Below, piece after piece: positions 11,735-58,800 of a DNA stretch of 64,000 bases. The DNA lies in assembly GCA_963383645.1 (NCBI GenBank), contig OY726560.1, forward strand, positions 30,503,173 to 30,567,172, given 5' to 3'. Source of the stretch: Muscardinus avellanarius. Taxonomy: Eukaryota > Chordata > Mammalia > Rodentia > Gliridae. The stretch's first letter is position 1. Every line of letters begins with the position of its first letter. A program made the position numbers and the translations under genes. The notes under the pieces were generated by a model. It did not search any database. It was not told the DNA's origin and saw nothing but the letters and a program-made list of their open reading frames with translations.

Positions 11735-13249
11735 CCAGGACTTCCGGGAAGATGGAGACGGAGGAAAGTGGCACTTACAAGTCCCGCTAAAAATCCAACT
11801 CTACTACCACAAAACCAGCGCCTTTCAGAGCCAGAAAACACCACCAGCAAAGAAATAAAAACGGTAAATACAAGGGACAGAGAAAAAGGACTGGAAAAAC
11901 AGGACACCAAAAAAAAACCAGCCCGAAGTGCCGCGCAGGCGTGGTGCAGAGCAGCAGGAGCTGCCTGAGCGGCCAGAGCCGCAGCGCGGATTGGGGGGAG
12001 CCGCGGAGCAGAGCGGCCTGAGCAGCTGGAGCAGCCAGAGCTGTGTCGCGGAACAGCTGGAGCGGCCGGAGTGGCCAGACCCGCGGTGCAGAGTAGCCAG
12101 AGCCACGGTTCAGAGCAGCCGAGCAGAGCGGCCAGAGCAGCCGAGCGGAGCAGCCAGAACAGCCAGAGCAGCCAGAGCCACAGGGTGGGGAACGGCGGCG
12201 CGGAGTAGCAGGAGCCGCGGAGTGGAGCGGCTAGAGCAGCCGAGCAGAGCGGCCAGAACAGCTGAGCGAAGCGGCCATAACAGCTGAGCAGAGCGGCCAG
12301 AGCAGCCAAGCAGAGCGGCCAGAGCAGCCGGAGCGGAGCGGCCAGAACAGCCGGAGCAGCCAGAGCTGCGTCGTGGAACGGCTGGAGCGGCCGGAGTGGA
12401 CAGAGCTGTGGTGCAGAGCAGCCAGAGTCGCGGTGCAGAGTGGCCGGAGTGGCGTGGCCTACATCTCCCCTAGCAGCACCAGGCTCCAGAGAGGAGGGAG
12501 ACTCAAAACAGAGATCAAATCCAGAGAGGATGTACTCTGGCCTCGCGGCCTAGGATGCAGAAGCAGCGTCTTACTGCTGGCGGCAGCAGCGAGTTCACCG
12601 GACGGCCCTAGACCAACCCACTCAACCAGCCACCAGGCGCCTGAGAGGAGGGGTGAACAGCGAGCCAAGGTGAGCAGGTGCTGAACAGCCGGGCGGCAGT
12701 CAGCAGTTTTGTTGGTGCAGGGAACATCTAAAGCTCCCAAGGGCCAGGCACAGCACAACTGGCAAGGACTCAGAGCGGAGTTCAAAACCAGAGAAGAAAT
12801 ACGCGCATCATGGCCGAGGGCGTGGCAGTGGTGTCATATTGCCAGTGGCGGCAGCAGTGAATCCACCGAGTTCACTACAGCTCCATCAGCGCACTCAACA
12901 ACCGTGAGTCAAATTGCGGCCCCTAGGGGAGAGATCCCAGTACTGTACTCCCAGGGACTTGCGCAGATAGTCTCCCTGGGTCGAGGATTTTAGCAGTGCA
13001 GCCCAGTGGGGGAGTGGCAGTGGCAGAGATATCATACCATAGTCACTACTCCCCACTGGAGAACGCCCAACTTGGCACCCCCCACGGTCTAAGCAGCCTT
13101 GATTGACTCCCTGGGTCTGAGACTTTGTAATACAACCCAGTAAAGGAGTAGTGGTGACTGAGATACCACAGACTCGAGATCCAGAGCATCTTAAGTGAAC
13201 TTGTAGTGACTCAGGGAAGAACCCAGAGAAGGCACAAACTTCCAAAATC
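11735..13249 (+). promoter_or_regulatory. L1 5' UTR, GC/CpG-rich with degenerate minisatellite
   Basis: It begins ACTTCCGGGAAGATGGAG, like an L1 5' end. From about 11930 to 12440 it consists of imperfect repeats of GAGCGGCCAGAGCAGC-like units, far more GC- and CpG-rich than the surrounding DNA. By analogy with other L1s this is the internal promoter region; that role is inferred. The long open frames here on both strands are products of the repeat. Confidence 0.65.
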
Positions 13250-14169
13250 ATGGGAAAGAGAAATAACAATGGAGCAGTGAATGCCAACAACCCCACAACA
13301 TCAGAATCTGATAACACAGAAATCCAAAGATCTCTAGAAGATCAAATTAGGAAAATAACTTTAGAAATAATAGAGGACTTTCGAAAAGAATTTAGAGAGA
13401 GTCAAAAAGAGATAAAGGATGCAATTAATGAAGTAAAGGACTCAATTCAAATTATAAACAACAGATTAGACCACATGGAGAATAGAATCTCGCTTCTTGA
13501 AGATGATCATTCTAAAAATGAACACATAGTTTCTAATTTAGAAAAAGAAAAACCCGACAGCAGGAATCTGACATTGAAGAAATATGGGCCCATTTCAAGA
13601 GAGCTAATCTAAGAATAATTGGAATAGAGGAGGGAAAAGAAAGTGAAACCAAAGGGATCAACAATCTCTTCAAGGAAGTAATAGCAGAAAATTTTCCAAA
13701 CATAGAGCAAGAGGTCGATACACAGGTCCAGGAAACTTATAGAACTCCCTTTAGACAGGATCAGAGAGTAGGATCCCCATGCCACATAATTGTCAAAATG
13801 ACTAATATGGAAGCCAAGGAGAGAATCTTAAAGGCAACAAAAACAAAAGGCCACGTGACATACAGAGGCAAACCAATTAGAATCACTCTAGACTTCCCAA
13901 ACCAAGTTATGAAAGCCAGAAGGGCTTGGAGTAACATATTCCAAACTCTGAAAGAAAACAACTTCCAGCCAAAAATTTCCTACCCAGCAAAACTATCCAT
14001 CAAATTAGATGGGGAAATAAGAAGCTTCCATGACAAACAGCAACTGAAGGAATTTATGTCTTCAAAACCAGCGCTAGAGAAAATACTCAAGGAGATTAAC
14101 TGCAAAGAGGAAATGGGTAATACACACCAGAACCAAAGAAACAAGAATTCCCATCCAGCAGACAACTAA
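13250..14169 (+). pseudogene. L1 ORF1 (frameshifted)
   Basis: ORF1p is the L1 RNA-binding chaperone that packages L1 RNA. Translation starts at ATG 13250. The N-terminal 100 residues form a charged heptad-type coiled coil (to about 13555). The frame is then lost by a 1-base indel at about 13555-13565, which gives a premature end at 13612. The remaining domains continue in another frame: the RRM-like segment (RIIGIEEG motif near 13610-13635) and the C-terminal domain (YPAKLS motif at about 13981), ending at 14169. With the shift the protein cannot be full length. Confidence 0.85.
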
Positions 14170-14217
14170 GCAAAGGAGAATAAACAGTATCTCAAACAGA
14201 AATAAGATCTTAACACG

Positions 14218-15345
14218 TTGGGAATTAAAAATTATCTCTCTATAATCACACTGAATGTAAACGGCCTCAACTCCCCAATAAAAAGACATAAAGTGGCAAA
14301 ATGGATTAAAAGCCAGAATCCATCCATCTGCTGCCTACAAGAAACACACCTTACAAGTAAAGATAGGAACAAACTCAAGGTAAAGGGCTGGAGCAAGGTA
14401 ATCCATGCTAATGGTACTCGAAGACAAGCAGGAGTAGCAACTATGATATCAGACAAGTTAGACTTCAAACCCAAACGTATTAGAAGAGACAAAGAAGGTC
14501 ACATTTTACTGGTAAAAGGAATAGTCCAGCAAGAGGAAATAACAATAATCAACATCTATGCCCCAAACATAGGGGCAGCTACTTTCATAAATCAAACTCT
14601 TTGTGACATGAAGTCACACATAAATCCCAACACAATAATACTGGGAGACTTCAACACACCTCTCACAATACTAGACTGATCTTCCAGACAAAGGGCCAGT
14701 AAAGATGTCTCAGAACTAAAGAACACCATTAACCAAATGGACCTGTTGGACACATATAGAATATTTCACCCAACTACAGCAGAGTTTACATTTTTCTCAG
14801 CTGCTCATGGAACCTTCTCCAAAATAGATCACATCCTGGGACACAAAATGAGCACTAGCAAATTTAAAAAATGTTACATACTTCACTGTGTCATTTCAGA
14901 CCATAATGGAATGAAACTAGAAATCAACTATAAGAAGACCCAGAGAAACAACTTAAACATGTGGAGACTGAACACCACACTTCTGAATGAAGAATGGGTC
15001 ATAGAAGATATAAGAGGTGAAATCAAAAAATTTCTAGAAACAAATGAAAATAAAGAAACAACATATCAAAACCTCTGGGACACTTTGAAGGCAGTATTAA
15101 GAGGAAAATTTATAGCACTGAGTGCTCACATAAGAAAAACAGAAAATCTTCAAATAAATAGCCTTATGACACACCTCAAAGCCCTTGAAAAGCAGGAACA
15201 ATTGAACCCCAAAGCCAGCAGAAGACGGGAAATTATTAAAATTAGAGCAGAAATCAATGAAATAGAGAATAAAAAAAAATACAGAAAATCAACAAAACCA
15301 AAAGCTGGTTTCTTGAAAAAATTAACAAGATTGATAAACCACTAG
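14218..15345 (+). pseudogene. L1 ORF2 5' part: endonuclease, stop-interrupted
   Basis: ORF2p carries an APE-like endonuclease and an RT. Visible endonuclease motifs are NVNGLNSPIKRHK (about 14257), QETHL (14340), NIYAP (14550), GDFN (14644) and SDH (about 14898). The frame opens with TTG at 14218 and has no obvious ATG. A TGA at 14677-14679 interrupts the endonuclease, after which the same frame reopens to 15345. Everything from the RT fingers and palm to the C-terminus is deleted, so it cannot retrotranspose in cis. Confidence 0.85.
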
Positions 15346-41481: not shown

Positions 41482-41487
41482 GGTGCC
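41482..41487 (+). repeat. Provirus target-site duplication, left copy
   Basis: GGTGCC immediately precedes the 5' LTR and recurs immediately after the 3' LTR (50935-50940). Six bp is usual for class II (betaretrovirus-like) integrases. Confidence 0.95.
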
Positions 41488-41886
41488 TGTGGGGAGCCGA
41501 GAAGCAATGTCCCTAAAAACCACCCTAAGCTTCCCCCAGGCTGCAGCTGTACTCTGGTTGACCGCAACTTGCTTTAAAAGAAGAACAGAGAGCAGTTATC
41601 ACTGAGGCAAGGCCAACAGAATGTGAGCAGTTAAAAATAAGTTAGGGACTAACAGTTCTCTTCCTGCCCTCGCTCTGATCAATGTAGCTCATGGCCATGA
41701 GAAAAGTTAGAGCAAACAATAAGACTTTCATACTGCAAAGGTTTATTGAAGGTTTAACATTCACCAGATGTAACATTGTGTGCGCAGATATCTGACTGTT
41801 CTAACATTCCAGCAAACTGTGTACGTGACATCCGTGCCTTGCGGCTTCCCGCCACTTCCCCCTCGGGGCTGTGTGCAAAAGGCTGT

Positions 41887-41905
41887 ATTGGCAACTCCTG
41901 ATTGG
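41887..41905 (+). promoter_or_regulatory. Two inverted CCAAT boxes
   Basis: ATTGG at 41887-41891 and 41901-41905 lie about 60-80 bp upstream of the TATA box, the usual position for NF-Y sites. Function is inferred. Confidence 0.6.
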
Positions 41906-41964
41906 TCGCCCTGGCTCCACTCCTCCTCCTTAGCCCTTCTCCCCTTCCCCCAGCCTCTCACTGC

Positions 41965-41970
41965 ATAAAA
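41965..41970 (+). promoter_or_regulatory. LTR TATA box
   Basis: GCATAAAAGG, the only good TATA element in U3. It predicts transcription start at about 41993-41998. The 3' LTR copy is at 50729-50734. Confidence 0.8.
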
Positions 41971-41983
41971 GGCTTGCCCCAAC

Positions 41984-41989
41984 AATAAA
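41984..41989 (+). terminator. LTR polyadenylation signal (5' copy)
   Basis: AATAAA only 14 nt after the TATA box, followed by a GT-rich stretch (TGTGTCTGGAG, about 42011). It lies upstream of the predicted cap site, so only the 3' LTR copy would be transcribed. Confidence 0.7.
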
Positions 41990-42172
41990 GCTTGCTTCAG
42001 ATCCTCATCCTGTGTCTGGAGTCATCCCTTCCCTACTAACCAATTTGCTTCCACAGGTACTCAGGAGAAGTTTCTCACCCACCACGTTGTGCGGTTGCCT
42101 TTCGGACAGCTCTCACTGCTGGTCAGCGAGAGCTCGGAGCCCTTTGGGGCTCCCCCCGTGGGGAACCGCATC

Positions 42173-42190
42173 TGGCGCCCAACGTGGTTG
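42173..42190 (+). other. Primer-binding site, tRNA-Lys1,2 type
   Basis: TGGCGCCCAACGTGG begins 2 nt after the LTR. This matches the complement of the tRNA-Lys1,2 3' end over its first 15 bases; the last three differ. Type D and sheep betaretroviruses use this primer. Confidence 0.85.
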
Positions 42191-42411
42191 TCATCCTTCT
42201 CCTTATCGACCGACCACGACCGTTTTGTCGAAGGCCAGCACGCCACGGTAAGCCCTTTCGCGTGCCCCTTCCCCGTGCGCACCCTCTTCGCGACTCCTGT
42301 CGCTACTCGTCGGTCTACGCCTCTGGGCCCGCCCTGTCCATTTTCGGACGCTTTTGTTCGCCGGTTGGCCACTTTGTTCGCCCTTAGGCCCCTTTTCGCC
42401 TTTTGGCCACA
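42191..42411 (+). other. 5' leader with splice donor
   Basis: C/T-rich untranslated leader. There is no ATG anywhere between the predicted cap site and the gag ATG. The packaging signal presumably lies here but cannot be recognised by eye. Confidence 0.7.
42245..42253 (+). promoter_or_regulatory. Major splice donor (predicted)
   Basis: ACG|GTAAGC, with the GT at 42248-42249. It is the best donor in the leader, upstream of gag as expected for producing env mRNA. Confidence 0.65.
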
Positions 42412-44502
42412 ATGGGCTCCGCCCTTACCACGGAAGCCCGCTTCCTCCGGTCCCTTCAGGATGAACTCCTCTCTCGCAAGATTCATGTCTCCAAGGCTGA
42501 TCTCTGTCAATTTCTTCTTACTGTTCATAAAGCCTCTCCTTGGTTTGTTTTTACTGCCCCTAAAATCGCCCGCTCTACCTGGCTCACCATTGGCAATGAT
42601 CTCTCCGCCTACGGAGACAAGCTCAATGACCCCGCCTTCAAAGACTGTCTCCTTAAATACTGGCAACTTCTTGATGGCATCATCACTGCCGCTCCTGTCT
42701 CCTCTGCCTGTGCCGATATCCTTGCTGCCGCGGAGGCTGTCCTCGCTTCGGCCTCCCGCTCTCATACCCCCGTCTCCCCTCTCCCCCCCCTTGAATCTTC
42801 TGCTTCTCAGCCCCCGCCCTACGTCCCCTCCTTCCCCACGGCCCCCGCGGTATCTACTGCCTCCTCTTTTGTTGCTCTCAGTCGCCCTCCCTCGCCTGAT
42901 ACTCTTTCGCCTCAGGACGAGGCTACCCTGGAGGAGGCAGCTGCTGCCTATGACTCTCGGCTTCAGCCCCCTGTCGGGTCCCCCGCTCCCGCCCCAGCCG
43001 TCGTCTCCTCCTCCCTTGAAACCACCCTTACAAAGTTATGCTCCTCTCTTGAACGCCTTCTCTCCCTGCCCCGCCCTTCCTCGCCGCTGCAAGCCTTCCC
43101 TGCCATTCTTGCACCCCCCCCCTCGCCTCCTCCCGCCTCCACCCGCTCTCCCGCTCCGTCCTCCTCTTCCCACCCTATGATCACCCGTTCCCGGGGCGCT
43201 GTTGCCTCCGGCGGCGCCGCCCCTCTTCAGCCTTCCTCCTCCGGTGACCCTGTTCCGCCACCGCCTCCGCTCCCGCCACAGCCCCCTGCAGCCCCTGCGG
43301 CCCCTCCGGCCCCGGAACCCGAGCCTGCTTCCGATTCGGAGGAGGAGGTCGTTGATGGCCCCTTCGGCCCTCGCCGAGCTCCCGGCAGCCTCCTCCGTGA
43401 GGCCGTCTCCTACCGGGAGTTGGATCAAGCCTCCCTTAAGGAGGTCCGCAAGGCGGTCCTTGAATACGGCCCACAGGCCCCTTACACCCTTTCCTGCCTC
43501 GAGACTTTGTCCTTTGGCGGGAACCTCTTCCCCCTCGAATGGCGCCTTACTGTCCGCCGCTGCCTCAAGACTGACCAAATCGTTCTTTGGGAGGCAGAGT
43601 TCATTACTAACTGTAAGGAACTCGCCCGCGGAAACAAGGATGAATTCCTTCAGATTTCCGGACAGGAACCTTATGATACTCTCCAGGCCCAGCGCCGCAT
43701 TTCTTATCACCTACTCAATCTCACTTCTCAGGCTGCTCTTCGTGCCTGGAAGGCGCTTCCTTCCAGCAATCCCCAACTCCCTCTTGCTAAGATCTTGCAG
43801 GCTGATGATGAACCCTATCATGCTTTCATTTCCCGCCTCTTGGAGGCCTTTGATCGCACCACGGGCATCACTGATACCTCTAATCCCTTCATTAAACAGT
43901 TGGCTTTTGAAAATGCCAATCCTGCGTGTCAACAGATCCTTAAGGGACCTAAGCCCTCTCGCACACTGGAAGAGATGATCTCTCTTTGTAAAAGCGCTCA
44001 CTCCTTTGCTACTCAGGTTGCGGGCGCCCTTGTCGCCTTTCAAGGCCAATCTTCTGGCCGAACCTGTTATTCTTGCGGCAAGCCTGGCCACTTTGCAGGC
44101 CGCTGCCCTGAGCGCCATGCTCCTACCCTTCTCACGAGTTCCACCACTCCTAGGCCCTCCTTGTGCCCCCGCTGCCGCCGCAGCCGCCATTGGCAGGCCT
44201 CCTGCCGATCCACCACTGACGTTGAAGGTAACTACCTCGGCCCGAACCCCCGCCTTCAACAGCCACACACAACCCATCCTCAGGGAAACTCCTCCAGGGG
44301 CTGCCCCCAAGCCCCGCGCTCCAAGCCTCGTCACATCAACTTTGTCCCAGCCTCGGGGGCTCAGACTGGGACTCCGGCCAAGCATCAGGCCTACCTTCAG
44401 CAGGCCCCATCCCAGGCCTTCGCCCCTCAACCGCCTCCCTCCTCCGGGCCACCCCCGGCTCAGCAGGACTTGACTTGTGTGCCTCCTCCCCCCACCTATT
44501 AA
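42412..44502 (+). CDS. gag: Gag polyprotein
   Basis: Structural precursor of matrix, capsid and nucleocapsid, 696 aa. I place the start at ATG 42412 because it is the first AUG of the RNA, sits in a strong Kozak context (A at -3, G at +4) and puts Gly at position 2 for myristoylation; a TTG three codons upstream is not needed. Order: matrix (1 to about 105); a Pro-rich linker with PPPY (134-137) and PTAP (142-145) late motifs; capsid (about 315-545) with the major homology region starting at Q463; CCHC knuckles at C552-C565 and C585-C598. A further PPTY ends the protein. The capsid and two-knuckle layout is betaretrovirus-like. The reading frame is unbroken. A -1 shift at 44283-44289 diverts some ribosomes into dut-pro-pol. 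Mature cleavage sites are not assignable by eye. Confidence 0.96.
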   Translation: MGSALTTEARFLRSLQDELLSRKIHVSKADLCQFLLTVHKASPWFVFTAPKIARSTWLTIGNDLSAYGDKLNDPAFKDCLLKYWQLLDGIITAAPVSSACADILAAAEAVLASASRSHTPVSPLPPLESSASQPPPYVPSFPTAPAVSTASSFVALSRPPSPDTLSPQDEATLEEAAAAYDSRLQPPVGSPAPAPAVVSSSLETTLTKLCSSLERLLSLPRPSSPLQAFPAILAPPPSPPPASTRSPAPSSSSHPMITRSRGAVASGGAAPLQPSSSGDPVPPPPPLPPQPPAAPAAPPAPEPEPASDSEEEVVDGPFGPRRAPGSLLREAVSYRELDQASLKEVRKAVLEYGPQAPYTLSCLETLSFGGNLFPLEWRLTVRRCLKTDQIVLWEAEFITNCKELARGNKDEFLQISGQEPYDTLQAQRRISYHLLNLTSQAALRAWKALPSSNPQLPLAKILQADDEPYHAFISRLLEAFDRTTGITDTSNPFIKQLAFENANPACQQILKGPKPSRTLEEMISLCKSAHSFATQVAGALVAFQGQSSGRTCYSCGKPGHFAGRCPERHAPTLLTSSTTPRPSLCPRCRRSRHWQASCRSTTDVEGNYLGPNPRLQQPHTTHPQGNSSRGCPQAPRSKPRHINFVPASGAQTGTPAKHQAYLQQAPSQAFAPQPPPSSGPPPAQQDLTCVPPPPTY
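44283..44289 (+). promoter_or_regulatory. -1 ribosomal frameshift slippery site
   Basis: G GGA AAC is in the correct phase of the gag frame (GGA 44284-44286, AAC 44287-44289). This heptamer is a known betaretroviral gag/pro slip site. It lies inside the gag/pro-pol overlap (44226-44502), 7 nt before a predicted stem. Confidence 0.85.
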
Positions 44503-47500
44503 CTCCCCAGGGCGGTATTTACTCCATCCCCACTGGTATCTATGGTCCTCCTCCCCCTGGTTATTTTTTCATGATTATTGGCCGCGCCTCCTCCACTATT
44601 GCTGGGCTTATTATCCAGCCCTCTGTCGTGGACGGTGATTATTCTGGTGAAATCTTCCTCAATGCGGTCGCCCCCTATCATCCTATTCAAATCTCTCCTG
44701 GCACTCGCATAGCCCAGGCCCTGCCTCTACCCCTGGCCGTTGCGCTTCCCGCCCTTCCTCATTCTCGAGGTCCTACCAGGCCTGGTTCCTCTGATGTTTA
44801 TTGGATTAAAACTATCTGTGAAGAACGCCCATCTGCCATTCTTTCCTTGACCATCCAAGGACGCCTTTTCCATGGCCTCCTGGACACAGGTGCTGACACC
44901 ACTTGTTTTTCACCGCTCGACTGGCCCCCGGATTGGCCTACTACTCCTTCCCCCTCTCCTATCTCCGGCGTTGCGGGCACAGCCAAGCAGGTCCACCTCA
45001 GTGCCCACCGCCTTGTATGGCAGGACGAGGATGGTGATACCGGCCTCGTTCGCCCATACATTATCCCCGATCTTCCTATTAATCTGTGGGGGAGAGACCT
45101 CATGGACCAAATGGGCCTTGTTCTTCTTAAATGTCGGGATAAAAAAATTCTTAACCAGATGCTTGCCTCCGGCTATGTCCCCTCAAAAGGACTCGGAAAA
45201 TACCTTCAAGGTATTACCAAGCCCATCACGGCCACCCCCAACCCCGGTCGCCACGGCTTCGGCTACTCTTCCTCCCTCTCGTCTCCCATTCCTGATAAAT
45301 CCTTATCCTCCTCCATATATGCTCAGTTTACCTTACCACCGGCATCTTCAGCTCTCCCCACGCTCGCTCCAAACCCTCGTCCCTCTTTGCGCATTTCCTG
45401 GTCCTCTGATGACCCGATTTGGGTCGCTCAGTGGCCCCTCACCACCGAAAAGCTCGCTGCAGCATCCGCCCTCGTACAAGAACAGCTTGCAGCTAACCAC
45501 ATTGAACCCACTACCTCTCCCTGGAACACCCCCATCTTTGTCATCAAGAAAAAATCAGGTTCATGGCGCCTTCTGCATGACTTACGCCGCATCAATGCCT
45601 CCATGAAGCCCATGGGGGCCACCCAGCCTGGTCTCCCGGTCCCTACAGCCTTCCCTGCCGGCTCCCATAAGATTATCTTAGATCTCAAGGATTGCTTCTT
45701 TTCTATTCCTCTCCATCCTGCTGATTGTCCTAGATTTGCCTTTTCCCTCCCTCCTATTAATGCGTCTGGTCCAGCTGCTCGGTATCAGTGGAAAGTCCTT
45801 CCTCAGGGTATGGCTAATAGCCCTACTCTTTGTCAGGTTTACGTTGCCTCATATGTGGATCCCTTCCGTTCCCTGTATCCAACTGTCTCTTTCTATCACT
45901 ATATGGATGATATCTTGCTCCTCGGCACTGATCCTGATGAGTTGCTCCATGTAGCATCTCACCTTGTCTCCTCTCTTAAGGCTCATGGTTTTGCCATTTC
46001 GCAGGACAAAGTCCAACTTCATCCTCCTCACTTGTTTCTTGGTTTTGAGCTGCTCCCTTCGTCTGTGCGCACTCAAAAGTTGCAGCTGCGCACCTCACAT
46101 TTAAAAACTTACCATGACTTCCAAAGACTCCTCGGGGACATCACTTGGCTGCGCCCATATCTTAAACTCTCCACGGGAGACATCAAGCCTCTGACTGACA
46201 TCCTCCAGGGGGATTCAGACCCTACATCCCCTCGTTCGCTCACTCCTGCTGCGAAGGAGGCCCTCCATCTCGTGGAACAGGCCATTTATGGTCAGTCACT
46301 TGTCTATTATGACCCTCGAAAGCCTCTCCAGCTTATTGTTTTGGCCACCACCTTTGCCCCCACTGCGGTTTTTTACCAGTCCGCCCCTTTGTATTGGATT
46401 CATCTCCCTGCCACCCCTCCCAAGGTTCTTGCCACATACCCTGACCTTATCATTTCCCTCCTCAACCATGGGCTTACCCTCTCGGTAAAAATTTTTGGTA
46501 TTCATCCTCATTCCATTATTCTTCCTTACTCCCCACAAAACTTGCAGTTCCTCCAAATTACATCTATCGATTGGGCTTTGTTTCTCACTTCCTATTCTGG
46601 TACTCTTCTTTCTCATTACCCCTCTGATAAACTTATTCAATTCCTCAATCGCAATCCTGTTGTTTTTCCTACCCTCTCCCGCTCTGTACCTATCCCACAG
46701 GCCACACTTGTTTTCACAGATGGTAGCTCCTCGGGAACTGCCGCTCTGTCCATTTCCGGTGAGATTTCCACGTTTAATACGCCCTATACCTCGGCTCAAC
46801 ATGTTGAATTGTTTGCCATCCTGCAGGTTTTTCAACTTGTTGCCGCCCCTTTCAATTTATATACTGATAGTGCTTATATTGCGCACTCCATCCCTCTTCT
46901 TGAAACTGTTCCCTTTATTAAACCTACCACAACTGCCTTTAAACTCTTTTCCTCCATTCAACAACTTATCCTACTTCGCTCACACCCTTTCTTTATTGCC
47001 CATATTCGGGCCCACACTTCTCTGCCCGGGCCCCTTGCTACGGGCAACGCCCAGGTAGACACGGCCACTAGGCCCTCCTCCATTTTAGCCATGGCAGCCA
47101 TTTTCTCTTCTCCTACTCCTTCTCCTTTAGAGCAGGCGCAACGCGCTCACGCCCTCCACCATCTCAACGCGCAAACACTGCGCCACAAGTTCCGCGTTAC
47201 TAGGGAACAAGCCCGACTTATTGTTAAGTCCTGTAAATCCTGTCTCTCTCTCTTGCCTGAACCTCACTCGGGTGTTAACCCCCGGGGCCTCACCCCAGGA
47301 GCCCTCTGGCAAACAGATATCACTCACTTCCAGCCTTTTGGCTCCCTCCAGTATGTTCATGTTTCTATCGATACGTTTAGCGGTTTCCTTTGTGCCTCTC
47401 TGCACACAGGAGAGGCAGCTAAAGATGTTGTCGCCCATTTTCTTCACTGTTTTTCAGTTATTGGCACACCGAAAACGATCAAGACTGACAATGGTCCAGC

Positions 47501-48053
47501 TTATATTTCTGATAAACTCAAAATCTTTCTCTCTAAATTTGGAATATCTCATACATTTGGAATTCCCCTTAACCCACAAGGCCAAGGCATCATTGAGCGA
47601 GCTCACTCGACATTAAAAAATATGCTCCACAAACTTTCCACCCAGGATCTTGTTTTTCAAGGGTTTAAAATAACCCCTCGGTTACTGCTTAACCATGCAC
47701 TTTTTGTGCTCAACTTCCTCTCTCTTGACACAGAAGGGAAGTCAGCGGCTGACAGGCTGTGGCATCCGGCCTCAGCCTCCTCTTTCTCCACCGTTCTGTG
47801 GAAAGATGTTCGCACAGGAGCCTGGCTTGGCCCCCACCCTGTGCTGATCTGGGGCAAAGGTTATGCCTGCGTTCACAACCCTGACACTGAAGAAACCCGT
47901 TGGCTTCCTGAAAGACTTGTTAAGCCGTTCAACCCTCCCAGGGAACCGGCCCCTGAGGCCTCTCCTTCTGTTCTCTCCACAGCTCCTGCGCAAAATGAGG
48001 CCTCCAACTTGGACCCTGAGGCTCCTGTCTTTGCTCCTTCTCCGAACTCCTGA
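44289..48053 (+). CDS. pol: Dut-Pro-Pol (frameshift-expressed part of Gag-Pro-Pol)
   Basis: Replication enzymes, 1,254 codons after the -1 shift; the frame is open from 44226 and has no internal start requirement. dUTPase: motif 1 GSAGLDL (about 44456), GRASS (about 44580), VVDGDYSGE (about 44628). Protease: DTGA (44883-44894) and GRDLMDQMG (about 45090), then a G-patch (GYVPSKGLGK, about 45171). RT: WNTP, LPQGM and YMDD (45900-45911). RNase H: acidic residues in TDGSS (D at 46719), VELFA and YTDSA. Integrase: HHCC-type N-terminus (about 47148-47245), then D 47316, D 47487 and E 47595 (D-X56-D-X35-E). Every catalytic residue checked is present. Protease and RT share one frame, so no second frameshift is needed. 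The 3' end overlaps env by 59 nt. Confidence 0.96.
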   Translation, partial: LLQGLPPSPALQASSHQLCPSLGGSDWDSGQASGLPSAGPIPGLRPSTASLLRATPGSAGLDLCASSPHLLTPQGGIYSIPTGIYGPPPPGYFFMIIGRASSTIAGLIIQPSVVDGDYSGEIFLNAVAPYHPIQISPGTRIAQALPLPLAVALPALPHSRGPTRPGSSDVYWIKTICEERPSAILSLTIQGRLFHGLLDTGADTTCFSPLDWPPDWPTTPSPSPISGVAGTAKQVHLSAHRLVWQDEDGDTGLVRPYIIPDLPINLWGRDLMDQMGLVLLKCRDKKILNQMLASGYVPSKGLGKYLQGITKPITATPNPGRHGFGYSSSLSSPIPDKSLSSSIYAQFTLPPASSALPTLAPNPRPSLRISWSSDDPIWVAQWPLTTEKLAAASALVQEQLAANHIEPTTSPWNTPIFVIKKKSGSWRLLHDLRRINASMKPMGATQPGLPVPTAFPAGSHKIILDLKDCFFSIPLHPADCPRFAFSLPPINASGPAARYQWKVLPQGMANSPTLCQVYVASYVDPFRSLYPTVSFYHYMDDILLLGTDPDELLHVASHLVSSLKAHGFAISQDKVQLHPPHLFLGFELLPSSVRTQKLQLRTSHLKTYHDFQRLLGDITWLRPYLKLSTGDIKPLTDILQGDSDPTSPRSLTPAAKEALHLVEQAIYGQSLVYYDPRKPLQLIVLATTFAPTAVFYQSAPLYWIHLPATPPKVLATYPDLIISLLNHGLTLSVKIFGIHPHSIILPYSPQNLQFLQITSIDWALFLTSYSGTLLSHYPSDKLIQFLNRNPVVFPTLSRSVPIPQATLVFTDGSSSGTAALSISGEISTFNTPYTSAQHVELFAILQVFQLVAAPFNLYTDSAYIAHSIPLLETVPFIKPTTTAFKLFSSIQQLILLRSHPFFIAHIRAHTSLPGPLATGNAQVDTATRPSSILAMAAIFSSPTPSPLEQAQRAHALHHLNAQTLRHKFRVTREQARLIVKSCKSCLSLLPEPHSGVNPRGLTPGALWQTDITHFQPFGSLQYVHVSIDTFSGFLCASLHTGEAAKDVVAHFLHCFSVIGTPKTIKTDNGPAYISDKLKIFLSKFGISHTFGIPLNPQGQGIIERAHSTLKNMLHKLSTQDLVFQGFKITPRLLLNHALFVLNFLSLDTEGKSAADRLWHPASASSFSTVLWKDVRTGAWLGPHPVLIWGKGYACVHNPDTEETRWLPERLVKPFNPPREPAPEASPSVLSTAPAQNEASNLDPEAPVFAPSPNS
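44297..44360 (+). promoter_or_regulatory. Predicted frameshift-stimulating pseudoknot
   Basis: Stem 1 pairs GGGGCT (44297-44302) with AGCCCC (44310-44315). Its loop GCCCCC (44303-44308) can pair with GGGGGC (44355-44360) as stem 2. All pairs are Watson-Crick. The 39-nt connecting loop is long, so the exact fold is unproven. Confidence 0.55.
47960..47982 (+). promoter_or_regulatory. Env splice acceptor (predicted)
   Basis: Pyrimidine tract CTCTCCTTCTGTTCTCTCC then ACAG, with the AG at 47981-47982. The env ATG follows 12 nt later with no intervening ATG. It pairs naturally with the donor at 42247/42248. Confidence 0.75.
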
Positions 48054-50181
48054 TGTGCACTACGCCCGGCAGTCTTCCCCCTATGCCCTTTATAATTATA
48101 CCTGGCTTATTGTGAACGAAGCCGGTGACATTGCCAACAGTACTAGCCTTCTTTCAAATAAAACCCCCTTTCCTACCCTATATGTTGACCTCTGTGCGCT
48201 AGCCCTCGGCGCTTCATACTGCTGGGGCACTGAAAATTCTTTTCTTCCTCGCGCCGGCCCCGTTAATGATTACTCCAGTAAACAGGCCTGTCAGGGTTCC
48301 CAATTTCGCTGTGACCGCCCGAAACAACGCGATCAACTAGCTGCCGCCCCCATTTATCTTTGCCCCGGTAATCACCGCCCTCGTGAGTCTGCCGCCAATT
48401 GTGGCCTATTGTCTGATTATTATTGTGCCGCATGGGGATGCGAAACCACCGGCGATACCTATTGGAAGCCCTCTTCCAAGTGGGATTTCATTACCATACG
48501 CAGGGGACGTTCCGTCCGTGGCCCCCAACGCTGTTATGCTACTCCCGCACCCTCTGATTGTCTCTGCACTCTTAACCCCTCCTCCTGGTGTAATCCCCTT
48601 GTTATAACCTTTACAACTGCTGGTAAAGCCCATGACTGGTCTCGACCTGTGCATTGGGGCCTACGATTGTATAAATCCCTTTATGATCAAGGACTCTCAT
48701 TTTCTATCCGACTCCTGAAAAACCCCCCCTATAGTTTAACGCCCTATGGTCTAGGACCTAATAAAGCCTTAATTCCTCCATCTGTTCCCCTCACCCCTCC
48801 ACCCCTCGTTGCCCCCATTACCCCTTCCCCTGCTCCTTCTCTTTCCTCTTCCAGTGATTCTCCCCCTCCCTTTTCCTTTCTCACCCCTGTGCCATATCAA
48901 CTAACTCTTCCTCCAGGAGCCCCCTCCGATACCGCCCGTTTGCTTGATATTATGAATGCCTCTGCCATGGCTATCCCCGATCCCGCCTATAAGCAATGTT
49001 GGATCTGCTTTTCCCCTGCCCCTCCCTTTTATGAAGGTATCGCAGTCCATGGTGACCCTGTTTCCTGTACAGATCCTGCTTCCCTCCCCTGGGATGTTCA
49101 CAACGCTCATGCCATCACTGTTGGTCAGATCATCGGCTCTGGCCTCTGCCTCCATCCCAATGGTACTAGAATGCCTCGCGAGATGTCATCCACCTGTAAC
49201 GCTTCCATGCTCGTTTACCCCTCGCCTGCCGATCGCGAGAATTACCTTGTTGCACCTAATGGGACCTATTTTGCCTGTGCCTCGGGTCTTTCCCCACATA
49301 TTGTTATTAATGATTTCTATGCCTCTAACGACTATTGTGTTCTTATTCTCCTGCTGCCACGCCTCTCCGTCCATCACACTGAGGACCTCCTCGTCGCCCG
49401 CATGACCGGCCCGGGCTACTCTCGTATCAAACGGGAACCACTCACGGCCATCACGGTGGGCCTCCTCCTCGCAGTTGGAGCTACCGGCGCCGGCACGGGC
49501 ATTGCCTCCCTGGTAGAAACTCAAGGGCAGTTCCGCCACCTTGAGGTCCTGCGCAGAAAGGTTGATGAGGATCTTGCGGAGCTCAAACAAGGACTTAAAC
49601 ACCTAACTAACACTGTTAATTCTCTAGCAGAAATGGTCCTCCAAAATCGTCGCGGTCTCAATCTGGCATTTTTGAAGGAAGGGGGGGTATGCGCCGCATT
49701 GAAAGAGGAATGTTGTGTATTCAAAGACGAAACAGGTCTGGTTCGAGATAGCATAAAAAGAATAGAACAAAGTCTTGAGGAAAGACGTAGAGAGATTGAT
49801 CAGAGCGAGGGCTGGTACAAGAACTGGTTTTCCACCACTCCGTGGTTATCTACACTGCTCCCAGCTTTTCTGGGACCCTTCATTGGCTTTATGCTGCTCA
49901 TTTCCTTTGGCCCCTGGGCCTTTCGCCGCCTCACCAGCTTTGTCAAAGGCCAAATCGACGAAGCCACAAAGAAGCATCCAACCGTCATGTATCAGCAGCT
50001 AGGGGCCACAGAAGATGCCCCCTACCCAGAACCAGACACAGCAAAGGAAGCTGCCGAAGACTCTCCCCCTACACCATCGCTTGCCTTCGAGCAGTTTGAA
50101 CGACTGGAGAAAAAATCTCCATCCTGCAGCTCGCGAATGGCGAAAGCTTGGCGTGATTTCAAACGCCGCTGCAACTGCTGA
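47995..50181 (+). CDS. env: Envelope glycoprotein precursor (SU-TM), gamma/D-type
   Basis: 728 aa. I start at ATG 47995, not the in-frame ATG 47863, because it directly follows the splice acceptor and is followed by a hydrophobic signal peptide (residues about 8-16). SU (1-480) has seven N-X-S/T sequons, a Pro-rich hinge (about 263-301) and CWIC (C335-C338). The furin-type site RIKR ends at residue 480. TM (481-728) has a hydrophobic N-terminal fusion peptide, a heptad region, an immunosuppressive-type segment (from about 549), CX6CC (C566, C573, C574), a membrane anchor (about 619-643) and a tail of about 85 residues with YQQL. CXXC plus CX6CC marks a covalently linked SU-TM of gammaretroviral/D type. 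The frame is intact. Receptor use cannot be inferred safely. Confidence 0.95.
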   Translation: MRPPTWTLRLLSLLLLRTPDVHYARQSSPYALYNYTWLIVNEAGDIANSTSLLSNKTPFPTLYVDLCALALGASYCWGTENSFLPRAGPVNDYSSKQACQGSQFRCDRPKQRDQLAAAPIYLCPGNHRPRESAANCGLLSDYYCAAWGCETTGDTYWKPSSKWDFITIRRGRSVRGPQRCYATPAPSDCLCTLNPSSWCNPLVITFTTAGKAHDWSRPVHWGLRLYKSLYDQGLSFSIRLLKNPPYSLTPYGLGPNKALIPPSVPLTPPPLVAPITPSPAPSLSSSSDSPPPFSFLTPVPYQLTLPPGAPSDTARLLDIMNASAMAIPDPAYKQCWICFSPAPPFYEGIAVHGDPVSCTDPASLPWDVHNAHAITVGQIIGSGLCLHPNGTRMPREMSSTCNASMLVYPSPADRENYLVAPNGTYFACASGLSPHIVINDFYASNDYCVLILLLPRLSVHHTEDLLVARMTGPGYSRIKREPLTAITVGLLLAVGATGAGTGIASLVETQGQFRHLEVLRRKVDEDLAELKQGLKHLTNTVNSLAEMVLQNRRGLNLAFLKEGGVCAALKEECCVFKDETGLVRDSIKRIEQSLEERRREIDQSEGWYKNWFSTTPWLSTLLPAFLGPFIGFMLLISFGPWAFRRLTSFVKGQIDEATKKHPTVMYQQLGATEDAPYPEPDTAKEAAEDSPPTPSLAFEQFERLEKKSPSCSSRMAKAWRDFKRRCNC

Positions 50182-50238
50182 GCACTACCCCTGAGGGGCA
50201 CCTCCAACAACTCCTCGCCGTCTCGCCGTCAGTAAATA
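50182..50238 (+). other. Short 3' untranslated gap
   Basis: Only about 70 nt separate the env stop from the LTR. A small CCCCTGAGGGG hairpin is at about 50188-50198. There is no room for a long constitutive transport element here. Confidence 0.6.
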
Positions 50239-50251
50239 CAGAAGGGGGAGA
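50239..50251 (+). other. Polypurine tract
   Basis: AGAAGGGGGAGA directly precedes the TG of the 3' LTR; it is the plus-strand primer site. Confidence 0.95.
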
Positions 50252-50934
50252 TGTGGGGAGCCGAGAAGCAATGTCCCTAAAAACCACCCTAAGCTTCCCC
50301 CAGGCTGCAGCTGTACTCTGGTTGACCGCAACTTGCTTTAAAAGAAGAACAGAGAGCAGTTATCACTGAGGCAAGGCCAACAGAATGTGAGCAGTTAAAA
50401 ATAAGTTAGGGACTAACAGTTCTCTTCCTGCCCTCGCTCTGATCAATGTAGCTCATGGCCATGAGAAAAGTTAGAGCAAACAATAAGACTTTCATACTGC
50501 AAAGGTTTATTGAAGGTTTAACATTCACCAGATGTAACATTGTGTGCGCAGATATCTGACTGTTCTAACATTCCAGCAAACTGTGTACGTGACATCCGTG
50601 CCTTGCGGCTTCCCGCCACTTCCCCCTCGGGGCTGTGTGCAAAAGGCTGTATTGGCAACTCCTGATTGGTCGCCCTGGCTCCACTCCTCCTCCTTAGCCC
50701 TTCTCCCCTTCCCCCAGCCTCTCACTGCATAAAAGGCTTGCCCCAACAATAAAGCTTGCTTCAGATCCTCATCCTGTGTCTGGAGTCATCCCTTCCCTAC
50801 TAACCAATTTGCTTCCACAGGTACTCAGGAGAAGTTTCTCACCCACCACGTTGTGCGGTTGCCTTTCGGACAGCTCTCACTGCTGGTCAGCGAGAGCTCG
50901 GAGCCCTTTGGGGCTCCCCCCGTGGGGAACCGCA
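50252..50934 (+). repeat. 3' LTR
   Basis: 683 bp, matching the 5' LTR base for base on reading. The TATA box (50729-50734) and AATAAA (50748-50753) recur. The AATAAA here would direct 3' processing of proviral transcripts at about 50765-50785. Confidence 0.97.
50748..50753 (+). terminator. Proviral polyadenylation signal
   Basis: AATAAA in the 3' LTR, with GT-rich sequence (TGTGTCTGGAG) about 20-30 nt downstream. Confidence 0.75.
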
Positions 50935-50940
50935 GGTGCC
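50935..50940 (+). repeat. Provirus target-site duplication, right copy
   Basis: GGTGCC directly follows the terminal CA of the 3' LTR, matching 41482-41487. Confidence 0.95.
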
Positions 50941-54050: not shown

Positions 54051-54312
54051 TCTAGAGTACTTGTAGCAGCTTATTGAGATATAATTGACACACAGTAAAC
54101 TATGTGTATTTAAAGTGTACAAGTGATAAGTTTTGACATGTTTAAATATCCATAAAATCATCACCAAAATCAATATAATAATCTTATCTCTAACCAGCAA
54201 GAGTTTCCCTTAGCCCTTTGTAATCTGGACTTCTATTCTCTTGCCACTTTCCCAAACTTTATATGCTCAACAACTGATTAGCTTCCTGTCAGTATAGATT
54301 AGCTTATTTTCT

Positions 54313-54522
54313 TTCTTTTTTTTTTTTTTTTTTTTGGTGGTGGTACTGGGGTTCCTGGAAGCCCTTCTACCTCTGGGCTACACTCCCAGACCTATTTTTA
54401 TATTTTTTATTTAGAAACAGGGTCTCCTAAGCCAGCGCGCGCGGCTGGCTTCGAACCTGCGCGATCCTCCTGTCTCCGCCTCCCAAGCGCGGGGATTACA
54501 AGCGTGCGCCACCACGCCCGGC
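54313..54522 (-). repeat. Very young B1-dID-type SINE, antisense
   Basis: It retains an unusually high CpG load (GCGCGCGCGGCTGG, CAAGCGCGGGG, GCGTGCGCCACCACGCCCGG). A perfect 18-bp target duplication, TAGATTAGCTTATTTTCT, is at 54295-54312 and 54523-54540. Confidence 0.95.
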
Positions 54523-54964
54523 TAGATTAGCTTATTTTCTACACCATTAAATAAATGAGATTATTTAGTTCTTGACTGACTTCTCTAATTCAGCCAAATT
54601 ATTTGGGGACTCATTGTAGCCTGTGCCAATAGTCTATCCCTTTTCAATGCTGCATAATGTTTTATTGTATGGACACATGCTGTATTTTGTTTATTCTTCA
54701 CGTGTTAGTGGCTAGTATGATTTCAGTGTTCGTAAGTCTCTGTAGCATATATAGCTGCTTTCATTTTGATCATGTAAATGTATAAAAGTGAGACATTTGA
54801 ATCATATGGAATGTGTATGTTTAACCTTTAGAACTGCCAGACCATTACAAACGTCTTTCCTATACTAGTGCCAACTCCTGACACCATCACACTATTTTGT
54901 TTTAGTCATACAACTAGGTATAGAGTGGTATCTCACTATGAGGTTTTGTTTTGCTTTATTGTGG

Positions 54965-55078: not shown

Positions 55079-55410
55079 TTGTGGTACTGGGGGTGGAACC
55101 CAGAGGCTTTCTGCCTCCGGCCTATACTCCCAGACCTGTTTTCTATTTTATTTGGAAACAGGGTCTCACTAAGCTGCCGAGAGCCTCAGTAAGTAGCTGA
55201 GGCTTGGTCGAACCTGCGCAATCCTTCTGTCTCAGCCTCCCAAGTGCGGGGATTACAAGCATGCGCCACCCGCCCGGCCTAGCCCTATTTTATTTTTTAT
55301 TTTGAAACATGGTCTCACTATATTGCTGAGACTGGCTGTGAACCTGGGATCCTTCTGTCTTAGCCCCTAAATACTGGGGTTACAGGTTTGCCACCACACC
55401 TGATTTTTAT
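54965..55410 (-). repeat. SINE inserted into older SINE, antisense
   Basis: An old antisense SINE (54965-55017 and about 55278-55410) is split by a younger antisense copy (55080-55277) with a long (TTTA)n tract at 55016-55080. CCTAGCCTTATT/CCTAGCCCTATT marks both sides of the insertion. Confidence 0.78.
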
Positions 55411-55808
55411 TGTGCTTTTAAACATTGATTCTTAATGACTTAGAAATATCTCTTCCTCTCCTTATTTTCAACTTGGACATATTCTTTGGTGAAGATTCTG
55501 TTCATATATTTCATTAAATACTGGGGTTACAGGTTTGCCACCACACCTGATTTTTATTGTGCTTTTAAACATTGATTCTTAATGACTTAGAAATATCTCT
55601 TCCTCTCCTTATTTTCAACTTGGACATATTCTTTGGTGAAGATTCTGTTCATATATTTCATTAAATACTGGGGTTACAGGTTTGCCACCACACCTGATTT
55701 TTATTGTGCTTTTAAACATTGATTCTTAATGACTTAGAAATATCTCTTCCTCTCCTTATTTTCAACTTGGACATATTCTTTGGTGAAGATTCTGTTCATA
55801 TATTTCAT
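55369..55808. repeat. 147-bp tandem repeat, 3 copies
   Basis: Units start AAATACTGGGGTTACAGG at 55369, 55516 and 55663 and look identical. Each unit combines the end of an old SINE with adjacent unique DNA, so a local duplication generated it. Confidence 0.95.
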
Positions 55809-56679
55809 CCATGTATTGATTTGCTTTTCTATTTAATTTGAAAAAGAATGTTATATATTGCAGATGCAAGTTCTTTATCATATATTTTAATTTTTCTTTT
55901 ATATATTTAATTAGTGCATTGTAGCAAGTAGGTATTTATCACAGATAGTTTCTTCCAATCTGTGCCTTTGCATTCCCTTAGCAGTATGTTCCAAAGAAAA
56001 TAATTTTTTATTTCAATGACTCAGAATTACTCATTTTGTTCTATTATATATCATGCCTTTGATGTCGGAGCTAATATATTATTATCTTTTTGCCCAACCA
56101 AAGGTACAAATATTTCCATCACCTTGTTTTTATTCTCAGAGTTTTAATCTTTGCCTTTAGGTTTACTTCATATTTAACATGAGTTAGAGCCTTCCAACTT
56201 TGTTCTTCTACTTAAAATTTGTTTTGACATTTTCTTTATATTTTCATACCACTTCTAGAATAGTTTTCAATTTTTAAAAAAATGTGTAGAACTTTGATTA
56301 GAATTCTGTTGATATCCATTTTGGAAAACTTGATATCTTAAAAATGTTAAAAATTTTAACTCATGAACCAATTTTTCCATTTTTTTAAACCCTCTTTAAC
56401 TTAACACTCACCAATTTTTTACAGAAATAAGTGTTAAATTCTTACATGTTTTATCAAATTTATTTATAAATATTTCATATATTTCATGCAGTTATAAATG
56501 CTCTTTGTATTATATGTGGTTTTTCATTGTTAATATATAGAAACATAATTCATTTATGTTTATTGATCTAATATTCTGAAAACTTGCTACCATGACTCAT
56601 TAGTTCCAATAGCTTTTAATATATACCATCAACTTTTTCACATATCTTATTATGTATGTCAGAAATAGATGTATTTTAA

Positions 56680-56873
56680 GCCGGGCGTGGTGGCGCACGC
56701 TTGTAATCCCCGCGCTTGGGAGGCAGAGACAGGAGGATCGCGCAGGTTCGAAGCCAGCCCTGCTGGCGTAAGAGACCCTGTTTCAAAAATATAAAATAGG
56801 TCTGGGAGTGTAGCCCGGAGGAAGGAGGGCTTCCAGGAACCCCAGTACCACCAAAATAAAAAAAAAGAAAGAA
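56680..56873 (+). repeat. Young B1-dID-type SINE, sense
   Basis: GCCGGGCGTGGTGGCGCACG head with CpGs intact and a full tail. The 17-bp AGAAATAGATGTATTTT at 56661-56677 and 56874-56890 is a target duplication. Confidence 0.95.
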
Positions 56874-58263
56874 AGAAATAGATGTATTTTTATTTTTATC
56901 TTCTTCCTTCCCCATCTCAATGTCTTTTATTCCTTTTTCCCTTTATTGAATAGGTCTTAACTTTCAGCTGGACAGAGTGATGAGATGGACATCTTTTCTT
57001 AGTTCTTGTCTTAGCAGCAAAGCACTTATTCTTTCCTTATAATATCCATCCACCATCAATTATGAATATAACATTCCAAATAAGGATGATGATAGCTGTA
57101 GACTTCTTTCAAATATGACTTTTATCAGGTTGAAAAAATTGACTTTTATTTCTAATTTGTTGTATTGATTTTATCAATAATGGATATGTGATTTTATCAA
57201 AGGCTCTCTTCTGCATCTCCTAGAACGTTTACTCTATGAATCATTAATATGATGAACTCCATTTACTGATTCCTAGTATTAAACCAACCTTGCAAAACTG
57301 AGACGATCATCACCTTTGATTACATATGTGTTGAAGTTGTTACATACTTTAGAAATTTTGTATATATATTCTTAAAGAATGTTTTTCCTTAACTTTCTTT
57401 TCTCTTAACTTTATTTCTGGGTTTTGTATTAAGGTCTGATATTAACATATTGGCCCTGTTCACCTGATATGAGGGATTTTGATTTTCTGGGAGATCTTTC
57501 ATTGAAGAAAACTACCATTTATCTTAAAATGAGCTTTGATAGGCTCTGATTTTTAAGAAAAAATTTTTTATTTTAGCTAAAATTTTAAATGAGGCTATTG
57601 AAAATTCCCCTACTGTCCTTCTTAGTATCATTAAGATCTGTTGTTTCACCATCTCTCTCCTTACGGAATTGCAATATCTTCTCTTCTTTTCCCTGGTCTG
57701 TTCGCTTAGGAGACTAATAAGCTTATTGATCTGAAAATAACAACTCAGGGTTCCATTTGTTTTCTTGCCTGGGTTTATTTATTCATTTACAGTGTTCTTG
57801 ACTTCTGTCTGACCTTTGATGTTTCCTTTCTTACACTTACTTTCCAGTTAACTTGCTCTTCTATTCTACTTTCTTAAAGTGAAAACTGAGGTTACTGATT
57901 TGAGATCTTTCTTTTTTTCTAATGCATGGGTTCATTACTATAAATTCTGTCTAAATGTGCTCTTTAAAGGCATGCAAAAAATATTGGGCATTTTGTGTTT
58001 TTATTTTCATTCAGGTCTCAACTCTTTGTAATTTTGCTCTTGGTTCTTATTTAGACCAAGGTTTGGTTACAAGTGGTAAATGTGGCTTTAAATATTTTGG
58101 GACTGTTCAGAAATATTTTCTATGCTAATATGTATTTTATTATTTATTAGACAGAGAACATACTTTGACTTTAGTACTTTTCTGTTTATTGAGACTTCTT
58201 ATGGCTCATGAGCTGATCTATTGTGGTTATCCATGTGCACTTGAAAAGAATATATAATCTCAG

Positions 58264-58470
58264 CTGGGCATGGTGGCGCATGCTTGTAATCCCCGCGCTT
58301 GGGAGGCAGAGACCGGAGGATCACGCAGGTTCGAAGCCAGCCCCACGCGCTGGCTTAGGAGACCCTGTTTCCAAATAAAAATGTAAAAATAGGTCTGGGA
58401 GTGTAGCCCGGAGGTAGAATGGCTTCCAGGAACCCCAGTACCACCAAATAAATAAATAAATAAATATTTA
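58264..58470 (+). repeat. Young B1-dID-type SINE, sense
   Basis: Complete copy with an AAAT-repeat tail. AATATATAATCT recurs on both sides as a probable target duplication. Confidence 0.92.
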
Positions 58471-58800
58471 AAAAATATATAATCTACCATTGTTATGTAA
58501 AATGTTCTATGAATTTCAAGATAAGTTGATTGATAATGTTCTTCGTATCCTCTATATTTATACTAAATTCCAGCCATTTTTATTACTTTTAGAGAGGTTT
58601 TAAAATTGTGGACTATAACTGTGAATTATTCCATTTTATTTCACCATTCTATCAGTTTTTTAAATCAATAAATTAGGTGCATAAGTGTTTACAAATGCTA
58701 TATGTTTTTGGTTTTAATCACCCTAATTTTTCTCTTTTTTCTTTTTTTCAGTCTTTATACTAACTTCATTATTTTGTGATTCAATTTTATTTTCTTTCTC

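Follow-up and report, generated by a model that had tools for sequence, protein, structure and literature searches.

We consider it highly probable (roughly 0.88) that the provirus at positions 41488 to 50934 of the DNA analyzed here belongs to a very young, multicopy family of chimeric endogenous retroviruses (ERVs), with betaretrovirus-like and gammaretrovirus-like parts, that has been invading the genome of the hazel dormouse (Muscardinus avellanarius) in recent times. The stretch that was analyzed, hereafter the window, comprises 64,000 nt of contig C4 of the assembly mMusAve1.1 and contains no N bases; coordinates given without a contig are positions in the window, and all features of the provirus lie on its forward (+) strand.

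Identical LTRs and a family of insertions

The window provirus is framed by two long terminal repeats (LTRs) of 683 bp, the 5' LTR at 41488–42170 and the 3' LTR at 50252–50934. Alignment of the two revealed identity at 683 of 683 positions, which is far beyond chance, and the element is flanked by a perfect 6-bp target-site duplication, GGTGCC, at 41482–41487 on the left and 50935–50940 on the right, as the original prediction had described. A ATAAAAGG box and an AATAAA were spotted by eye in the 5' LTR. The 5' LTR is followed by a 15-nt primer-binding site (42173–42187), which presumably fits tRNA-Lys1,2, and a polypurine tract (50240–50251) adjoins the 3' LTR. Between them lie gag, a frame of 696 amino acids from the ATG at 42412 (42412–44502), a single open dut-pro-pol frame of 1,273 amino acids from stop to stop (44232–48053), and an open env frame (47848–50181) with in-frame ATGs at 47863 and 47995.

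A search with the LTR covered 2,497,143,478 bases in 104 contigs, the published assembly holding 2,497,520,702 bases in 212 scaffolds, and returned at least 33 matches. These represent at least 20 insertions, namely 13 proviruses (one with a truncated LTR) and seven solo LTRs, and copies with more divergent LTRs may have escaped. A perfect duplication surrounds every one of the 20 sites, 6 bp long in 19 and 5 bp in one. Within the 12 complete LTR pairs there is no difference over 8,196 sites, and the truncated thirteenth likewise has none over 436 bases. Between insertions, nine LTR haplotypes are present, differing from the window LTR by zero to five substitutions. Since the variants occur between but not within copies, each pair would have been made from one RNA, as happens in reverse transcription, and the variants would have arisen during replication. 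The original prediction had not recognized these further insertions.

To place these data in time, we assumed that 2.2e-9 or 4.5e-9 changes occur per site per year. A single identical pair then limits the age to less than roughly 1.0 or 0.49 million years, respectively (95%), and the 12 identical pairs limit the mean age to less than roughly 83,000 or 41,000 years. The very recent insertion claimed originally is therefore strongly supported by the 12 identical pairs and by the seven open full-length copies described below, and it rests more on the family than on the window copy. An assembly artifact or gene conversion between LTRs could in principle equalize the two repeats of an older insertion. 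However, there is no positive sign of either process, and the assembly was built from PacBio HiFi reads at 58-fold coverage with a quality value of 53.7 (PMC11190645). Because all 12 pairs are identical inside and yet nine haplotypes occur across insertions, and because the full-length copies are all open, we judge this explanation very improbable.

Seven full-length copies were found, the window provirus and six others, with an LTR spacing of 8,764 or 8,752. The comparison of the six others left out the leader between LTR and gag. In all seven, which lie on several chromosomes, gag, pol, and env are open, and an in-frame 12-base deletion in gag is present in four. An open Env with the layout of a fusion protein is also what a captured host gene, such as a placental env, might look like if selection kept the window copy open. 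However, with all the genes open on several chromosomes, youth is a simpler explanation than selection on one locus, and we find a captured gene scarcely credible.

The remaining proviruses are defective in various ways. Two of them, on different chromosomes, share a 2.5-kb pol deletion corresponding to window positions 45158–47679 and have different target duplications and different early env stops. Finding one and the same deletion at two distinct integration sites suggests that an intact genome assisted the copying of a genome defective in pol. Another provirus lacks 42187–47179, and a further one has lost two large parts of gag, which also contains an early stop, while its env is open. A provirus on contig C8 (118196482–118203061) lacks 43282–46148 and is hypermutated, and a copy on contig C9 (10839760–10844612) is both deleted and rearranged. 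In the C9 copy, the leader and the start of gag, exactly inverted, directly follow the primer-binding site, and the env start is joined to the U3 region of the 3' LTR. A 703-base stretch of this copy had been considered as foreign sequence and turned out to be this inverted part of the element itself. Likewise, an origin from spliced RNA was considered for the C12 copy and rejected, as the junction lies at the primer site.

The gag-dut-pro-pol and env genes

The Pfam domains of Gag above cut-off are Gag_p24 (two domains) and zf-CCHC_5, with zf-CCHC at cut-off and the matrix domain Gag_p10 under it (21.3 versus 23.9 bits). Two CCHC knuckles were identified by pattern, together with PPPY and PTAP late-domain motifs. 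In the pol frame, dUTPase, RVP, G-patch, RVT_1, RVT_thumb, RNase_H, and three integrase domains all score above cut-off, and the dUTPase (residues 70–167 of the frame) stands beside the protease (RVP, 203–298), which is followed by the G-patch (310–345). The catalytic motifs that had been reported together with three unbroken genes were found again, namely DTG in the protease, YMDD in the reverse transcriptase (RT), DGS in RNase H, and HHCC and D-D-35-E in the integrase. The top RT match of Pol is 7sr6 (E 1.4e-147), a human endogenous retrovirus K (HERV-K) RT (PMC10782711), and the top integrase matches, 7usf and 3jca, are mouse mammary tumor virus integrase (PMC9410886). Gag best matches 8c9m and 6hwi, neither of which carries a virus name, and next two HERV-K capsid chains. 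A single-sequence structure prediction of RT was poor (mean predicted local distance difference test score, pLDDT, 44.0). Collectively, the Pol matches, the dUTPase next to the protease, the Lys-type primer site, and the 6-bp integration identify gag-dut-pro-pol, by sequence, as betaretrovirus-like (class II).

The arrangement of these genes departs from the typical betaretroviral layout. Textbook betaretroviruses have pro in its own frame and use two frameshifts, whereas here dut, pro, and pol lie in a single frame, which is also unbroken in the other six full-length copies, with one slip site, the heptamer GGGAAAC at 44283–44289. This heptamer is a candidate for −1 frameshifting, its phase suiting a passage from gag to dut-pro-pol. 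Simple stems 3' of it, the only kind considered, were no better than those of shuffled sequences (z +0.88), and an Rfam scan of the window at gathering thresholds gave no match. The coding strand from 42171 to 50251 is pyrimidine-rich and purine-poor (A 0.19, G 0.19, C 0.35, T 0.27), above all in gag, unlike betaretroviruses, which are A-rich.

While the class II label of the original prediction holds for gag and pol, it did not say that the Env is of gammaretroviral type. The Env matches TLV_coat above the Pfam cut-off (E 9e-120) and carries a CWIC motif (CXXC) in the surface subunit, an RIKR cleavage site, a CX6CC motif in the transmembrane subunit, and a hydrophobic anchor; of these, TLV_coat, CXXC, and CX6CC point to the gammaretroviral type. 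The N-terminal domain matches, in order, 9fqt, 9uat (a chain labeled only "Surface protein"), and 1lcs, a feline leukemia virus (FeLV) domain, and 9fqt is the receptor-binding domain of Friend murine leukemia virus (MLV) (PMC13022406). The best stretch of Env against Syncytin-1 (8ouh) starts at residue 421. In the RD114/D-type interference group, the receptor-binding domain has an SDGGG motif. We found no DGGG in the Env, which argues against membership of that group. By these matches and motifs, the Env appears nearer in kind to the MLV/FeLV type than to the D type. The combination of class II Pol matches with an MLV/FeLV-like receptor-binding domain therefore makes the element a beta/gamma chimera. 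The receptor-binding domain was poorly predicted from its single sequence (mean pLDDT 28.2), and no relative emerged when IMG/VR was scanned with Env and Pol (four pattern matches with none confirmed in one scan and no match in the other).

Selection, hypermutation, and mode of spread

Variable sites among the seven full-length copies lean toward synonymous changes, with 11 synonymous and four nonsynonymous in gag, 11 and five in pol, and seven and six in env. The corresponding crude ratios of nonsynonymous to synonymous change (dN/dS) are 0.13, 0.15, and 0.28, and the p values against a neutral expectation are 0.00018, 0.00033, and 0.022 (pooled 1.8e-8). That expectation was calculated without transition bias, which would increase the neutral synonymous share, so the p values are underestimates, to an unknown degree. 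Sites in the slight gene overlaps were counted twice, two codons with several changes were counted crudely, and the 12-base gag indel was left uncounted. Overall, the variation suggests purifying selection in gag and pol and, more weakly, in env.

The C8 provirus differs from the window copy by 203 substitutions in the compared pieces, and 195 of these are G to A on the coding strand. G was changed at 99 of 205 GpA sites but at only 96 of 806 other G sites (p 1e-27). The four premature stops in its env all replace TGG codons, and its LTRs have only two differences each, both common to another copy. Judged from this pattern, the germline provirus is G-to-A hypermutated in the style of APOBEC3. 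The same spectrum led us to reject a mosaic with a divergent lineage, which a difference of about 5% in gag and env had brought into consideration. A tally in five other deleted or rearranged copies gave no excess of G to A in four, and the pieces of the C9 copy have six such changes among eight substitutions.

These data bear on how the family spread. The main rival to an invasion driven by infection is intracellular retrotransposition, or copying in trans from a few proviruses, with the Env intact merely for lack of time. The deleted copies did move, and constraint is weakest in env, so this rival is compatible with the env data. However, Env is open in all full-length copies and its variants still lean synonymous. 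Moreover, the germline holds a heavily G-to-A-edited copy, as PMC2531183 describes for ERVs with an extracellular cycle, where such traces are taken as restriction at entry; by the same account, intracellular elements are also restricted by APOBEC3. We regard the intracellular route as unlikely, although it has to be taken seriously.

We favor a spread by infection. A retrovirus with a chimeric genome would recently have entered the dormouse germline and multiplied mainly through virion-mediated reinfection of germ cells via its own Env. On its way in it would have met APOBEC3 at least once, and intact copies would have supplied proteins to deleted ones, so that the invasion would have left behind intact, deleted, and solo-LTR copies. 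Overall, the family looks like an early-stage germline invasion in which many insertions are probably still unfixed, and the window provirus itself may be active, as was originally proposed. More tentatively, and with somewhat less than even confidence, we suggest that an env of the MLV/FeLV class was gained apart from the D-type viruses, that the invasion is ongoing, that an exogenous form still circulates in the dormouse, a protected European mammal, and that APOBEC3 edits some of the incoming proviruses.

Several observations weigh against a recent invasion by an infectious virus. Seven of the 20 sites are already solo LTRs, which implies that some time has elapsed or that LTR recombination is quick. 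The PHQ motif, which is linked to fusion in MLV-type Env, was not found in the Env, and the weak constraint on env (7 to 6, p 0.022) points the same way. Gene conversion could have reduced the divergence between LTRs. The observed-to-expected ratio of CpG is high in the internal part (0.67), low in the LTR (0.39), and 0.21 in the flanks, and because of the low LTR value we dropped CpG content as a sign of youth. Finally, the evidence for an invasion comes from the sequence of one assembly, for which an alternate haplotype (GCA_963383665.1) exists.

Neighboring repeats, known relatives, and significance

Other repeats are present elsewhere in the window. A LINE-1 at 11740–15345 has a G+C-rich 5' region of diverged 22-bp repeats, followed by ORF1 (Transposase_22 and Tnp_22_dsRBD) and pieces of the endonuclease in separate short frames. 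At 55368–55808, a 147-bp unit, the start of which resembles part of a 7SL-type short interspersed element (SINE), occurs three times with 100% identity, reflecting either recent triplication at this site or an effect of the assembly. The window also contains many copies of a composite SINE in which a B1-like head is joined to another unit (for example, 54285–54525, 56662–56890, and 58245–58483), which fits the B1-dID of dormice and squirrels.

Related systems exist in other hosts. An armadillo reportedly carries an unfixed chimeric endogenous betaretrovirus that uses ASCT2. The koala element phaCin-beta is described as a recent, shallow class II expansion with a dUTPase and an env of gammaretroviral origin, one locus of which was shown to be absent from another animal (PMC9231498). 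It is closest to squirrel monkey retrovirus and acquired its env as that virus and Mason-Pfizer monkey virus did (PMC9231498), whereas the receptor-binding domain of the dormouse Env matches Friend MLV and FeLV. In three of the eight marsupial MEBrv clades, betaretrovirus-like gag and pol are likewise combined with an env resembling that of gammaretroviruses, and certain clades are intact with identical LTRs; however, the hosts are different and the LTRs measure 281–469 nt (PMC11334065) rather than 683. In the python PyERV, gag-pol is nearer to betaretroviruses and env to murine gammaretroviruses (PMC10536682), although the host is a reptile and the likeness is one of description, not of sequence.

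Group VIII betaretroviruses, the type D clade, also join a class II gag-pro-pol to a gammaretrovirus-like Env, and the bat elements of the same report have a dUTPase and, in all but one with a readable site, a Lys-type primer site (PMC3621094). The dormouse element differs from this group in its single dut-pro-pol frame and, as far as tested, in a receptor-binding domain that is not of the RD114/D type. The monkey SERV is an endogenous class II family with a dUTPase and many copies with uninterrupted ORFs; by the account in PMC8775094, APOBEC3 marks are nearly absent from it and no copy is lethally hypermutated, in contrast to the one heavily edited copy in the dormouse, and two APOBEC3G-hypermutated HERV-K copies are cited there. 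Beta/gamma chimeras that are young, as judged by identical LTRs or by polymorphic loci (PMC9231498, PMC11334065), are thus already known, and so are APOBEC3-edited germline copies (PMC2531183, PMC8775094). Judged by titles and the starts of abstracts, searches of the open-licence literature for a dormouse or Muscardinus retrovirus gave only papers on other subjects, and a report may exist elsewhere.

Germline invasions that can be observed near their start are few, and the koala is the standard case. With at least 20 insertions, no LTR divergence, open full-length copies, and a deaminase-edited copy, the dormouse family would provide a second mammalian system, in which the order of insertion, fixation, and host defense could be followed. 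The hazel dormouse lives in Europe and comprises two divergent lineages (PMC11190645). Because the copies or an exogenous virus may differ between populations, the family may also be relevant to dormouse conservation and reintroduction.
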